Positions 10,255 to 19,273 of a stretch of DNA of 64,000 nucleotides are shown here, one piece after another. The stretch is taken from assembly GCA_027082925.1 (NCBI GenBank), contig JALWTD010000014.1:72393-136392 (forward strand), in the 5' to 3' direction. Each line of letters starts with the position of its first letter. Within the stretch, counting starts at the first letter, position 1. Below the pieces are notes generated by a model, which saw only the letters and a program-made list of their open reading frames with translations, ran no database searches and was not told the origin of the DNA. Source of the DNA: Flavobacteriaceae bacterium (GTDB lineage Bacteria > Bacteroidota > Bacteroidia > Flavobacteriales > Flavobacteriaceae). The translations under genes and the position numbers were made by a program.

Positions 10255-11236
10255 TCTTATTGTATGTACATATCAACGACCAAATGCTGTTGTAAGCCTT
10301 TTAAAATCGGTACAACAACAAACGCTATACCCCAACGAAATAATAATTGTTGATGGTTCTACTGATACAAAGACTACCAAAATTCTATCAAATCATTCTT
10401 TTGAAAAAGTATGTTACTATAAAGTAGATGAAAAAAATAGAGGACTTACCAAACAACGAAATTTTGGAATTTCTAAAATAGCTTCTGATACCAATATTGT
10501 TTGTTTTTTAGACGATGACACATTGCTAGATAAAGCCTATTTTAAAGAGTTAATACAAACGTACAAAAAAACAGATGCGATAGCTGTTGGAGGTTTTATC
10601 ACCAATGAAGTCACTTGGAAACCATTACAGGGTAGTATAAAATACGATGAATTTGAAATGGATGGCTTTGTACGAAAAATGGGACAACGAAACGCTATTC
10701 GAAAAAGCTTTCATTTACTAAGCGATAAACCTCCCGGTGTTATGCCTGAATTTTCAAATGGTTTTTCTGTTAGTTTTTTACCTCCAACAGGCAAATATTA
10801 CGAAGTAGAGTATTTTATGGGAGGAGTGGCTTCATACAAAAAAGAGGTCTTTAGCGCTGTGCGTTTTAACACCTATTTTGAGGGATACGGACTGTATGAA
10901 GATCTAGATTTTTGTCTTAGAGTTTCACGATTAGGGAAATTGTATGTCAATACAAATGCAAAAGTTGAACATCACCATCATGAAGACGGTAGGCCTAATA
11001 AGTTTATGTATGGGAAAATGGTTGTTAGAAATGGCTGGTATGTTTGGCGAGTAAAATATCACAAACCTACTTTTAAAAATCGTTTAAAATGGAATTTTAC
11101 AGTATTTTTACTCACATTATTGCGATTATCAAACGTACTAACTTCGAATAAAAGAAAAGAAGCCTTCACAGAAACAGTAGGAAGATGTTATGGATGGTTC
11201 AGTTTGGTTTTCAATAAACCTAAAATTAACATATGA
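10244..11236 (+). CDS. Glycosyltransferase family 2 (GT-A)
   Basis: 330 aa. It starts with FSLIVCTYQRPNAVVSLL and IIIVDGSTD, the nucleotide-binding start of GT2 enzymes, followed by GLTKQRNFGI and the DxD-type metal site FLDDDTLLD. GYGLYEDLDFCLRVSRLG carries the ED acceptor-side motif seen in many GT2 proteins, and a His cluster (VEHHHHEDG) lies after it. It overlaps its upstream neighbour by 11 bases and the next gene by 4, so it is part of the same operon. The transferred sugar is unknown. Confidence 0.87.
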   Translation: MKFSLIVCTYQRPNAVVSLLKSVQQQTLYPNEIIIVDGSTDTKTTKILSNHSFEKVCYYKVDEKNRGLTKQRNFGISKIASDTNIVCFLDDDTLLDKAYFKELIQTYKKTDAIAVGGFITNEVTWKPLQGSIKYDEFEMDGFVRKMGQRNAIRKSFHLLSDKPPGVMPEFSNGFSVSFLPPTGKYYEVEYFMGGVASYKKEVFSAVRFNTYFEGYGLYEDLDFCLRVSRLGKLYVNTNAKVEHHHHEDGRPNKFMYGKMVVRNGWYVWRVKYHKPTFKNRLKWNFTVFLLTLLRLSNVLTSNKRKEAFTETVGRCYGWFSLVFNKPKINI

Positions 11237-12519
11237 AATTTGCAATAATTACACATGCAGAACATAAAATAAAAGGGAAAGATATTTTTGCCTACGAACC
11301 TTATGTTCGTGAAATGAACTTGTGGATAAAGTATGTAGATGAAGTTCGTATTGTAGCACCTGTTTCAGCAGAGAAAATTACTTCAATAGACTGTAAGTAC
11401 CAACTACGGCATAGCAAAACACAGCGCCATTTTACACTTGATACAAAATCTCATGATTTAGAGAAAAAGAAACAGATTCCCAATCAAGTTGGGAATGACA
11501 AAATTGAATTAATACCTATTTCTTCATTTGATATTACTTCATTAAAAAATGGAATTACAGCAATTTTAAAAATTCCAAAAATTTTAGTTGTTATATATAA
11601 AACAATGAGATGGGCGTCACATATTCATTTAAGATGTCCTGGAAACATAGGCCTCTTAGGAAGTATTGTTCAAATTGCATTCCCTTCAAAACCTAAAACA
11701 ATTAAATATGCAGGTAATTGGGATCCTAAAAGCAAACAACCTTTGAGTTATAAATTACAAAAATGGATTTTAAGCAAACCTTTTTTAACCAGAAACGCTA
11801 AAGTATTAGTGTATGGCGAATGGCCTAACCAATCGGCTAATATTATACCGTTTTTTACAGCGAGTTATTCAGAAACCGAACTTCATTCTCAACTTGACCA
11901 AGAATCTCATGATTTAGAAAAAAAGAAACCTATTTTCAATCAAGTTGGAAATGACAATAAGATAAACTTTCTATTTGTAGGAGGTCTTACTTCTGGCAAA
12001 CAACCTTTACTAAGTGTTCAATCAGTTCACAAGCTAAAAGAAAAGGGGTACAACGTGCAACTAGATATCTATGGCGATGGCATTGAACGAGCTACTTTAG
12101 AAAATTATATTCAAACACATTCTTTAAAAAAGGAAGTAATTCTCCATGGAAACACTTCAAAAGAAATAGTAAAAGAAGCATATAAAAAAGCTCATTTTTT
12201 AGTATTCATTTCCAAATCAGAAGGTTGGCCAAAAGTAGTTGCTGAAGCAATGTTTTGGGCTTGTTTACCAATTTCAAGTCATGTATCTTGCATTCCAAAC
12301 ATGTTAGACAACGGTAAAAGAGGTACACTTGTAACAGCAATGGTTAACGATATTGTATCTGCTATTGAAAGTTATATAAAAAATGAAGAAAAATATAAAA
12401 AGCATGTAAAAGAAGCTATAAATTGGTCAAGACAATATACGTTAGAGAAATTTGATAACGAAATTGGAAAATTATTATATACAGATAATATCATTCCTGA
12501 CAAACAGATTTCAAATTAG
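11233..12519 (+). CDS. Glycosyltransferase family 4 containing two repeat-derived in-frame insertions
   Basis: 428 aa GT-B protein: LDIYGDGIERATLENYI, LHGNTSKEIVKEAYKKA and EX7E in SEGWPKVVAEAM identify GT4. Unusually, a near-identical 17-residue peptide occurs twice (residues 73-89 and 225-241; SHDLEKKK then one variable residue, I, one variable residue, NQVGND). The DNA for each belongs to the palindromic repeat family that flanks the nuclease gene just downstream. The first insertion falls between N-domain strands (VRIVAPVS and KIELIPIS), the second in the linker before the C-domain strand INFLFVGG, both likely surface loops. The ORF remains open and the core motifs are intact, so the protein is probably active. 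Confidence 0.85.
   Translation: MKFAIITHAEHKIKGKDIFAYEPYVREMNLWIKYVDEVRIVAPVSAEKITSIDCKYQLRHSKTQRHFTLDTKSHDLEKKKQIPNQVGNDKIELIPISSFDITSLKNGITAILKIPKILVVIYKTMRWASHIHLRCPGNIGLLGSIVQIAFPSKPKTIKYAGNWDPKSKQPLSYKLQKWILSKPFLTRNAKVLVYGEWPNQSANIIPFFTASYSETELHSQLDQESHDLEKKKPIFNQVGNDNKINFLFVGGLTSGKQPLLSVQSVHKLKEKGYNVQLDIYGDGIERATLENYIQTHSLKKEVILHGNTSKEIVKEAYKKAHFLVFISKSEGWPKVVAEAMFWACLPISSHVSCIPNMLDNGKRGTLVTAMVNDIVSAIESYIKNEEKYKKHVKEAINWSRQYTLEKFDNEIGKLLYTDNIIPDKQISN
11421..11499 (+). repeat. In-frame palindromic repeat insertion 1 inside a GT4 gene
   Basis: This stretch aligns with the intergenic copy at about 13074-13141: cagcg-catt...cttga...atctcatga, then gaaacagat and a palindrome. The clear hairpin is 11476-11496: ATTCCCAA, loop TCAAG, TTGGGAAT, followed by GAC as in intergenic copies. 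The upstream palindrome is degenerate. The segment is longer by about 8 bases between the two palindromes than the intergenic copy, which puts the second palindrome in a frame without a stop codon. Confidence 0.82.
11868..11955 (+). repeat. In-frame palindromic repeat insertion 2 inside the same GT4 gene
   Basis: It has the same order as insertion 1: a degenerate CTTGA-loop palindrome (about 11885-11905), then atctcatgatttaga, an A-rich spacer, then a TCAAG-loop hairpin at 11932-11952 (ATTTTCAA / TTGGAAAT, one G-T wobble) and GAC. It encodes HSQLDQESHDLEKKK and the following NQVGND. Confidence 0.8.
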
Positions 12520-12560: not shown

Positions 12561-12690
12561 CATCATTCCCAGCTTGACTGGGGAAATCGGTTTAACATGA
12601 TGAAGCAGAGCGTCATTCCCAGCTTGACTGAGGAAATCGGTTTAGCATGATGAAGCAGAGCGTCATTCCCAGCTTGACTGGGAATCTTTA
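12561..12690. repeat. Left palindromic repeat array: two 50-bp units plus a terminal palindrome
   Basis: Units at 12561-12610 and 12611-12660 are direct 50-bp repeats differing at four positions. Each begins with a TCATTCCCAG-CTTGA-CTG palindrome and ends in atgatgaagcagag. A third copy of the palindrome, at 12665-12685 (ATTCCCAG, CTTGA loop, CTGGGAAT), is perfect. The bases 12520-12560 contain only degenerate traces (aacgtcatt, agttcaacag). The nuclease gene begins 16 bases after the array. Confidence 0.92.
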
Positions 12691-12705: not shown

Positions 12706-12996
12706 ATGAAAGAAAGTTTTGTTTACATGCTTAGCAATAAAAATAGAACCGTTTTATACATTGGCATAACTTCTAACTTACTTAGAAGAATTGAAGAACA
12801 TAAAAATGGTATTGGCTCTATATTTACAAAAAAGTACAATGTTAATGAATTATTATATTTTGAAGTGTTTAATGATATAAACCAAGCGATAAAAAGGGAA
12901 AAACAATTAAAAAAATGGAATAAGGATTGGAAATGGAGTCTAATTAAAGAAAATAATCCATATTTGGTAGATTTGTACGAAAGTTTGAGAAATTGA
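12706..12996 (+). CDS. GIY-YIG single-domain endonuclease (YhbQ/UPF0213-type)
   Basis: 96 aa. The GIY-YIG half-motifs appear as FVYMLSN (VYM in place of GIY, residues 5-11) and LYIGITSNLLRRIEEH, which includes the conserved Arg; the catalytic Glu is probably in YFEVF, and AIKREKQLKKW is the usual C-terminal helix of the subfamily. Proteins of this class are small nucleases of mostly unknown function, some cutting branched DNA. The gene is alone between two palindromic repeat arrays and interrupts an otherwise tightly packed glycan operon, so it looks like an insertion unrelated to polysaccharide synthesis. A role in moving or maintaining the repeats is inference. Confidence 0.88.
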   Translation: MKESFVYMLSNKNRTVLYIGITSNLLRRIEEHKNGIGSIFTKKYNVNELLYFEVFNDINQAIKREKQLKKWNKDWKWSLIKENNPYLVDLYESLRN

Positions 12997-13000
12997 AGAA

Positions 13001-13180
13001 CAGATACCGAATCAAGTGCGGTATGACGAAGTAGAACATCATTCGCATCTTAACTGAGAAAAACTGACTTAACAGCGTCATTTCCAGCTTGACTTGGAAT
13101 CTCATGAAAAGGAAACAGATACCGCATCAAGTGCGGTATGATAAAGCAGAGCGTCATTCCCAGCTTGACTGGGAATCTTA
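13001..13180. repeat. Right palindromic repeat array with alternating orientation
   Basis: Hairpins are at 13004-13024 (ATACCGAA/TGCGGTAT, TCAAG loop, one mismatch), a degenerate copy near 13039-13061, then 13080-13100 (CTTGA loop, imperfect), 13119-13139 (ATACCGCA/TGCGGTAT, TCAAG loop, perfect) and 13156-13176 (ATTCCCAG/CTGGGAAT, CTTGA loop, perfect). TCAAG and CTTGA are reverse complements, so units alternate in orientation, unlike the left array. Two stem sequences (TTCCC and TACCG types) are both compensated. Confidence 0.9.
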
Positions 13181-18069: not shown

Positions 18070-19273
18070 AGTCATTTGGGTTATTAATCAAACTGCAGGA
18101 AAACCAGATTCTGGTTGGGGAGAGCGTCATTACTATTTCTCGAGATATTGGACGCAAAAAGGGTACGATGTAAAAATAATATCCGGCTCGTACAATCACT
18201 TATTTATCAATCAGCCTAAAACAACAACTAAAACTTTTACAATAGAAAAAGTTGAAGACCGAATTACATTTTGTTGGGTAAAAATACCAAAATACGATGG
18301 AGGCAGTGTTTTTAAGTTGTGGAGTATGATTGTATTTGCTATTAAAATACTGTTTTTAAAAACAAAACTATTAGGGAAACCAACTATTATCATTGTTTCA
18401 TCTATGCCGTTATTTCAGATTTTATCTGGAATCTATTTAAAACGAAAATTTAAAGCGAGAAAATTGCTTTTTGAAATAAGAGACTTATGGCCACTAACTC
18501 CCATACATTTATCCGGCTACTCAAAATGCCACCCAATGGTTTTGGTCATGAAATGGATTGAAAAAATAGGGTACACAAAAGCAGATGAAATAGTATCCCT
18601 TTTGCCAAATGCAAATAAATACATAGATACTATTTCTAAAAACCCACATAAATTTCATTGGATTCCAAATGGTATCGATGAAAACTTACTCACTTCAGAA
18701 AGTTTACCGGAAAGTATAGTAGCTAAAATTCCAACAAATAAATTTATTGTTGGATATACCGGCACAATAGGTATGGCAAACGCCATGGAATATTTCATAA
18801 AGGCTTCTATACTATTAAAAAATAATACTGATATCCATTTTTTAATTGTTGGAGACGGCTACTTAAAAGAAAAATACATACGCCAAACATCTGGTAATAC
18901 GAATATTACTTTTATTCATAAAATTAAAAAGAGTCAGGTTCAAACTATTTTATCTTATATTGATGTATGCTATGTTGGAAGGTACAACAATAAATTATAT
19001 GAATATGGTGTTTCTTACAATAAATACTACGATTATATGCTCTCAGCAAAACTCATTCTAGAATCTTCAAATCATATTAATAGTCCTGCAGAACTATCTC
19101 ACTGTGGCTTAATTGTAGCACCTGAAAGTGAAAATGCAATTGTAGAAGGTATTTTAAAACTTCATAAAATGACTAAAAGTCAATTGGTCGAAATAGGTGA
19201 AAAAGGTTATCACTATGTAAAAAAATACCATAACTTTGAATTTTTAAGCAACAAGTATCTCAAATTATTCTAA
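18059..19273 (+). CDS. Glycosyltransferase family 4, WbuB-like
   Basis: 404 aa. The start VIWVINQTAGKPDSGWGERH and KGYDVKIISGSYNHL resemble WbuB-type transferases that act early in O-antigen assembly. IVGYTGTIGMANAMEYFI and FLIVGDGYLKEKY are core strands, and GVSYNKYYDYMLSAK replaces the usual donor-binding Asn-Lys-hydrophobic-Asp-Tyr-Met element. Being next to the initiating sugar-phosphate transferase suggests it adds the second sugar of the repeat unit, by analogy with other loci. Confidence 0.83.
   Translation: MSNKVIWVINQTAGKPDSGWGERHYYFSRYWTQKGYDVKIISGSYNHLFINQPKTTTKTFTIEKVEDRITFCWVKIPKYDGGSVFKLWSMIVFAIKILFLKTKLLGKPTIIIVSSMPLFQILSGIYLKRKFKARKLLFEIRDLWPLTPIHLSGYSKCHPMVLVMKWIEKIGYTKADEIVSLLPNANKYIDTISKNPHKFHWIPNGIDENLLTSESLPESIVAKIPTNKFIVGYTGTIGMANAMEYFIKASILLKNNTDIHFLIVGDGYLKEKYIRQTSGNTNITFIHKIKKSQVQTILSYIDVCYVGRYNNKLYEYGVSYNKYYDYMLSAKLILESSNHINSPAELSHCGLIVAPESENAIVEGILKLHKMTKSQLVEIGEKGYHYVKKYHNFEFLSNKYLKLF

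Follow-up and report, generated by a model that had tools for sequence, protein, structure and literature searches.

Palindromic repeats occur in frame at two fixed sites of a GT4 glycosyltransferase gene (gt4) throughout much of the genus Lutibacter, and the tolerance of the two corresponding protein loops for such selfish DNA is well supported. We consider it likely that CGTC-type REPs settled in two permissive loops of a working enzyme, were seeded by an adjoining module, and then multiplied locally. The resulting orthologs constitute a natural graded series of a protein absorbing selfish DNA at two fixed sites with its core still under selection. The window, i.e., the whole 64,000-nucleotide stretch of DNA analyzed, belongs to a 2.47-Mb genome of Lutibacter, a marine bacterium (G000 in our labeling). 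Its initial annotation had described the two inserts and overlooked their genus-wide recurrence, their single codon phase, and the presence of a palindrome-bracketed GIY-YIG gene nearby.

The product of the host gene was assigned to the GT4 class on the basis of its Glycos_transf_1 domain (PF00534) and GT-B fold, as the solved structures closest in fold were GT-B glycosyltransferases, several of them GT4 (6eji, MshA, BshA, PimA); the enzyme probably functions in exopolysaccharide synthesis. The initial annotation, in which a palindromic repeat was said to be inserted twice in frame within this ORF, proved accurate. Two units of about 85 nt (Table 1) keep the frame open and encode a common 17-residue peptide at residues 73-89 (SHDLEKKKQIPNQVGND) and 225-241 (SHDLEKKKPIFNQVGND), identical at 15 of 17 positions. 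They lie in a domain loop and at the domain linker. The AlphaFold model is good overall (mean pLDDT 86), with low confidence at the inserts: pLDDT was under 50 for residues 63-83 and about 55-60 for residues 221-240. The repeat had also been equated with that of the arrays downstream, and the reverse palindrome of insert 1, the only copy within the inserts to match the pattern exactly, is indeed 92% complementary to both 12662-12687 and 13153-13178. Compared by eye, the forward-to-reverse spacing was 48 nt in insert 1 versus 40 nt in the intergenic dimer, so the claim that the inserts have a spacer about 8 bases longer, which moves the second palindrome out of a frame that would hit a TGA, holds. 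Folding as single-stranded DNA was more stable than for shuffled sequences, with z-scores of -2.3 and -2.5 for the insert segments and -3.4 and -3.6 for the array stretches. The strict palindrome pattern was found four times in the G000 genome (reversed pattern, 0), with three of the four matches inside the window, all at the gt4 locus. When the same genome was searched by BLAST with the 85-nt insert, the matches past the top two were mostly noise. Elsewhere in the window, a lone palindrome-like match at 18409-18434 is weak, with 2 mismatches.

Table 1. Coordinates of the gt4 gene, its inserts, and the neighboring palindromes and nuclease gene in the window
Feature	Position	Strand	Basis
GT4 glycosyltransferase ORF, 428 aa, host of both inserts	11233-12519	+	PF00534, E 1.1e-26
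Insert 1 at site 1, in an N-terminal-domain loop; a spacer separates a degenerate forward palindrome from a reverse one	11417-11501	+	pairwise identity, model
Insert 1, forward palindrome, degenerate, 3 mismatches	11426-11451	+	pattern scan
Insert 1, reverse palindrome, exact CGTC-type pattern, read QIPNQVGND	11474-11499	-	pattern scan
Insert 2 (site 2, linker preceding the C-terminal domain); 79% identity with insert 1 over 85 nt	11873-11957	+	identity, model
Insert 2, forward counterpart, diverged	11882-11907		same register as insert 1
Insert 2, reverse palindrome, diverged	11930-11955	-	register, 456 nt from 11474-11499; fails pattern scans
Diverged palindrome copies left of the GIY-YIG gene	about 12562 and 12612		
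CGTC-type palindrome immediately left of the GIY-YIG gene	12662-12687	+	pattern match, fold
Small GIY-YIG nuclease ORF, 96 aa, candidate partner of the palindromes	12706-12996	+	PF01541, E 2e-18
Palindrome immediately right of the nuclease gene, with 2 mismatches	13002-13027	-	pattern scan
Intergenic dimer, same arrangement as the GT4 inserts (forward 13077-13102, reverse 13117-13142)	13077-13142	+	found at 3 mismatches
CGTC-type palindrome, exact pattern match	13153-13178	+	pattern scan

Searching 38 genomes of the genus yielded 22 with a GT4 match at an E value of 1e-30, and the 17 matches with at least 55% identity were treated as orthologs, leaving out five at 30-32%. Sixteen of the 17 span both sites; the other, in G029, lacks a site-1 insert and is truncated at site 2 by the end of the contig, reading ECHPELVSGSHEINQNQ there. 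The N-terminal part of this G029 locus (L037, 4828-5463) is far more diverged than the middle, giving it a mosaic-like appearance. The insert-free form is represented by G028 (372 aa), whose length is exceeded by 15 of the 16 site-spanning orthologs (397, 403, 405, 413, 416, 420, 428, 429, 436, 464, 502, 537, 669, 735, and at least 950 aa), the last value, from G019, being a minimum because the gene lies on two contigs, each of which breaks off within the repeat. Near-identical in-frame tandem units of 240 nt (80 codons) reach both of these contig ends (L028, L021). Upon alignment to G028, insertions of at least 4 aa were confined to reference positions 45-67 (site 1) and 186-200 (site 2), except for pieces of G019 before position 45, which appear because its N-terminus is missing. 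Site 1 is occupied in eight orthologs (G000, G008, G011, G019, G020, G024, G032, and G035), and the total number of added residues rises gradually across orthologs, from some 25 to over 500. The insert peptides vary from species to species, including RHPQLDWGS, RHSAPDAES, CHPEPVEGS, RHPEFSSGS, and EMLKQVQHD, among others. Palindromes were detected inside gt4 in 10 of the 16 orthologs at up to 2 mismatches and in 11 at up to 3. Six (G007, G009, G021, G028, G032, and G034) had none at 2 mismatches, and because five of these six are longer than G028, their inserts were assigned by position and peptide remnants. Strict palindromes were present in 36 of the 38 genomes (0-66 copies each), and gt4 of G024 alone accounted for 6 of the 66 in that genome. 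Past the gt4 stop of G020 (L023, 58-706 nt downstream), the array itself forms an open frame of more than 200 codons with MLKQVQHDE-like repeats.

All 95 palindromes identified in gt4 at up to 3 mismatches (61 forward and 34 reverse, both G019 contigs included) were in one codon phase, a number that includes at least two chance matches in native sequence (G024 residue 336, G035 residue 407) and the tandem copies of G019, which are not independent. The same was true of all 58 at up to 2 mismatches. When adjacent distinct pairs were counted, 51/51 (up to 3 mismatches) and 26/26 (up to 2) were in phase, compared with 49/149 and 32/94 control pairs located outside ORFs of at least 250 codons in 136 loci, although an open frame alone accounts for part of this result because one of the three frames usually has a stop. 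For every one of 12 forward words, the two unused frames were less hydrophilic than the one in use. The phase counts, like the bracketing counts given below, were obtained with a finder that tries each loop length separately; bracketing was the same with a fuzzy-matching finder.

Simple inheritance appears unlikely to account for these patterns. Under such ordinary descent, one ancestral insertion per site would have been passed on and would have diverged with no continuing repeat activity, and the core tree is in keeping with this to the extent that it unites the Lutibacter GT4s in one clade (support 0.885) and groups the site-1 carriers with G007 (0.640). However, a given site holds palindrome families and insert lengths that vary markedly from species to species, several species keep exact palindromes, the 240-nt tandem units of G019 are near-identical, and the two sites resemble each other within a species. 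Site 1 matched site 2 of the same species with a mean of 126 bits versus 49 for other species (0/20,000 shuffles; n = 8 species), and the own-species site 2 was the best match in five of the eight, suggesting that the units of one genome were exchanged or expanded jointly. Repeat-free homologs with the same peptides at both sites, named in the initial annotation as a sign of ordinary descent, were not found: the peptides of the orthologs differ there, and no palindrome was present in any of the 76 loci (782 kb) outside the Lutibacter clade. With its weak support, the tree does not separate a single ancestral insertion per site followed by turnover from repeated insertion.

The outside set represents 76 of 80 loci, with L069 (L. 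flavus), L071, L078 (Lutibacter sp. HS1-25), and L079 excluded as Lutibacter; L076, one of the 76, is labeled Lutibacter sp. and lies outside the clade in the core tree. Small palindrome-free insertions were seen at site 2 in L098 (Flavobacterium sasangense; 27 aa) and L111 (28 aa), neither containing a palindrome that passes the pattern, and shorter ones in a few other loci. The insert of L111, a Flavobacteriaceae MAG outside the clade, contains a GTCATTCCCAG fragment in another frame. Within Lutibacter, strict palindromes outside gt4 were scored as lying in an ORF in 4/60 cases in G024, 2/34 in G032, 0/5 in G007, 0/1 in G000, and 1/1 in G011, the G011 stretch having been chosen because it was already visible in an open frame. 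Single in-frame palindromes were observed in five unrelated Lutibacter genes (L247, L252, L266, L271, and L307), which by sequence reading are GDP-mannose dehydratase-, HsdS-, diphosphomevalonate decarboxylase-, mutase-, and DnaC-like, and these palindromes use the frames seen in gt4. Two further candidates, L264 and L282, were judged to be chance matches in native coding sequence.

It is quite improbable that the inserts have been kept for a function of their own, for example lengthening the linker, binding a partner, or making length variable. Extra linker residues are kept in 15 of the 16 site-spanning orthologs and the two sites are used exclusively, as a functional role would have it, but both sequence and length vary widely (from tens of residues to a total above 500), the insert stretches are of low confidence in the model, G028 and most outside loci have no inserts, and unrelated genes also hold in-frame palindromes. 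The initial annotation had left a choice between tolerance and exaptation of the repeats as protein loops; the data support tolerance, and no evidence for exaptation emerged. We read the inserts as neutral, disordered stretches of peptide carried along as baggage.

The GT4 core is under purifying selection in the single pair tested, G019 and G024, which have the longest inserts: dN/dS was 0.018/0.286 = 0.063 over a 116-codon block and 0.063/0.919 = 0.069 over a 167-codon block. Residues E330 and E338, which we take to be the EX7E motif, were invariant in 41 aligned proteins. That gt4 is decaying and its open frame accidental, as the great length and repetitiveness of the inserts in G019, G020, and G024 might imply, is scarcely credible, as a dN/dS of about 0.07 largely excludes decay for that pair, both glutamates are conserved, and the frame is open to the terminal stop in 16/16 orthologs, the stops counted inside some matches being the gene end.

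The putative source of the repeats adjoins the gene. Directly 3' of gt4, a GIY-YIG gene was found in 7 of 16 loci (G000, G002, G003, G008, G011, G019, and G020), with just 57 bases available after gt4 in G034. The 96-aa product in the window matches PF01541 and, weakly, PF10544. Matches to this gene were obtained in 35 of 38 Lutibacter genomes and 121 of 296 others. Of 30 Lutibacter loci, 17 had a palindrome within 250 bp of the GIY-YIG gene, 14 of them on both flanks; of 29 sampled in other Bacteroidota, 24 did, 18 of them on both flanks. A reversed-sequence control gave 0/59; the remaining 13 of the 30 Lutibacter loci had no palindrome by the pattern. The loci sampled were the best matches, so that the sample favors close homologs, and bracketing drops with identity, from 10/10 at 70% or more to 2/6 below 50%. 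By the strict pattern, 20 of the 29 loci of other Bacteroidota had palindromes versus 0.22 of 29 expected from genome-wide density. With gt4-linked loci excluded, palindrome density was 3.1-4.6 per kb next to the GIY-YIG gene versus 0.17-0.33 per kb elsewhere in the non-ORF DNA of these loci. The left and right palindromes of a locus were 0.935 identical versus 0.672 across loci (0/20,000 shuffles; n = 38 two-sided loci), and the own pair ranked top in 25 of 38, a match that may come partly from genomes dominated by one palindrome family. The nearest copies were inverted in 25 loci and direct in 13.

A similar arrangement was observed on plasmids. Of 33 plasmid records with a GIY-YIG gene by tblastn, 10 were inspected, and nine had matching hairpins on both sides (six by the pattern; L371, L373, and L375 by a hairpin scan); these nine comprise eight from Alphaproteobacteria and one from Planktothrix, and a Photobacterium plasmid had a hairpin on one side only. 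The unit of Azospirillum (L367) lies between annotated sufB and sufC, and the flanks of the Shinella unit (L369) resemble those of Azospirillum by eye, without annotation. No report linking GIY-YIG proteins to REPs was found among the open-license PMC matches listed.

The adjoining module is a plausible but weakly tested source of the gt4 repeats. Palindromes of gt4 resembled those of the module of their own species just slightly more (0.844) than those of other species (0.780; 16/720 permutations, six species). Insert load does not clearly follow the presence of the module: no GIY-YIG gene adjoins gt4 in G024 (735 aa) or G035 (502 aa), and G024 has 66 palindromes yet no GIY-YIG match at 1e-8. 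Palindromes are kept in G014, where the nuclease is absent, and the correlation between GIY-YIG copies and palindrome counts over the 38 genomes was weak (Spearman 0.35, P 0.03). Side-by-side reading of gt4 3' regions that have the module and those that lack it revealed neither a target-site duplication nor a clean empty site.

Taken as a sequence of events, settlement of the repeats in gt4 would have begun with seeding from the GIY-YIG/palindrome module found immediately behind the gene in several species. Once inside, units may have been replaced and multiplied through local recombination, gene conversion, or tandem duplication, and cells would have been lost when an insert led to a closed frame or to a more hydrophobic one. 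The nuclease would probably cut the palindromes and could thereby drive their spread; that it mobilizes the repeats is our hypothesis, drawn from association only. On a broader scale, it is quite possible, though we would stop short of calling it probable, that small GIY-YIG proteins and CGTC-type palindromes form a widespread partnership like that of RAYT and GTAG REPs, though built on an unrelated nuclease, in which the nuclease recognizes its own type of palindrome and drives the spread, and that gt4 of Lutibacter became a hotspot because the module has long stood behind it.

The CGTC-tagged REPs are the closest known system. According to their description (PMC3733652, Di Nocera et al. 2013), they have a CGTC tag, an 8-bp stem, and a 5-base loop, form dimers, and also occur in Bacteroidetes; intragenic in-frame copies include two per ORF, larger intragenic clusters encode 43 to 82 aa, and recB of Xanthomonas campestris and X. 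oryzae was invaded at the same site. The Lutibacter repeats share the tag, stem, loop, dimers, and in-frame copies twice per ORF. The tag is present at 12661 (CGTCATTCCC), the base preceding GTC being left unscored at other loci; the palindrome at 12662-12687 has an 8-bp stem and a 5-nt loop, within the 8-9 bp and 4-5 nt of CGTC REPs, and the repeats are multicopy (36/38 genomes) with dimers seen. Unlike in the described cases, repeats entered gt4 at the same pair of sites in almost every ortholog of the genus, its inserts can total more than 500 aa, and CGTC-type units bracket a nuclease gene. As in-frame CGTC REPs are already known elsewhere, the gt4 case is a variant thereof.

Rickettsia palindromic elements are likewise tolerated in frame within ORFs (PMC10969869, PMC3733652), and the gt4 repeats resemble them in lying in frame in functional-looking ORFs. 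The parallel with these elements drawn in the initial annotation stands as an analogy, whereas the novelty it attached to the case does not, since in-frame CGTC REPs, including two per ORF, had been described outside Rickettsia (PMC3733652). The two systems differ in host phylum, and the Rickettsia elements hit many unrelated genes, whereas here one gene dominates.

REPtrons, in which a RAYT transposase gene is accompanied by GTAG REPs (PMC3733652), offer the nearest counterpart of the bracketed nuclease. Like them, the 38 two-sided loci have a small gene for a DNA-cutting enzyme between palindromes of matching type; unlike them, the enzyme is a predicted GIY-YIG protein and not a RAYT, the palindromes are CGTC and not GTAG, and mobilization is hypothetical here. 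The UPF0213 GIY-YIG proteins of PDB 1zg2 and 1ywl, both named hypothetical, are alike within the GIY-YIG domain across some 80 residues, a distant similarity (E 0.006 and 0.0095). PMC3733652 reported no transposase associated with CGTC repeats, which seem to lack a dedicated one; the GIY-YIG nuclease is therefore a testable candidate partner and provides a concrete candidate for the enzyme behind these repeats.
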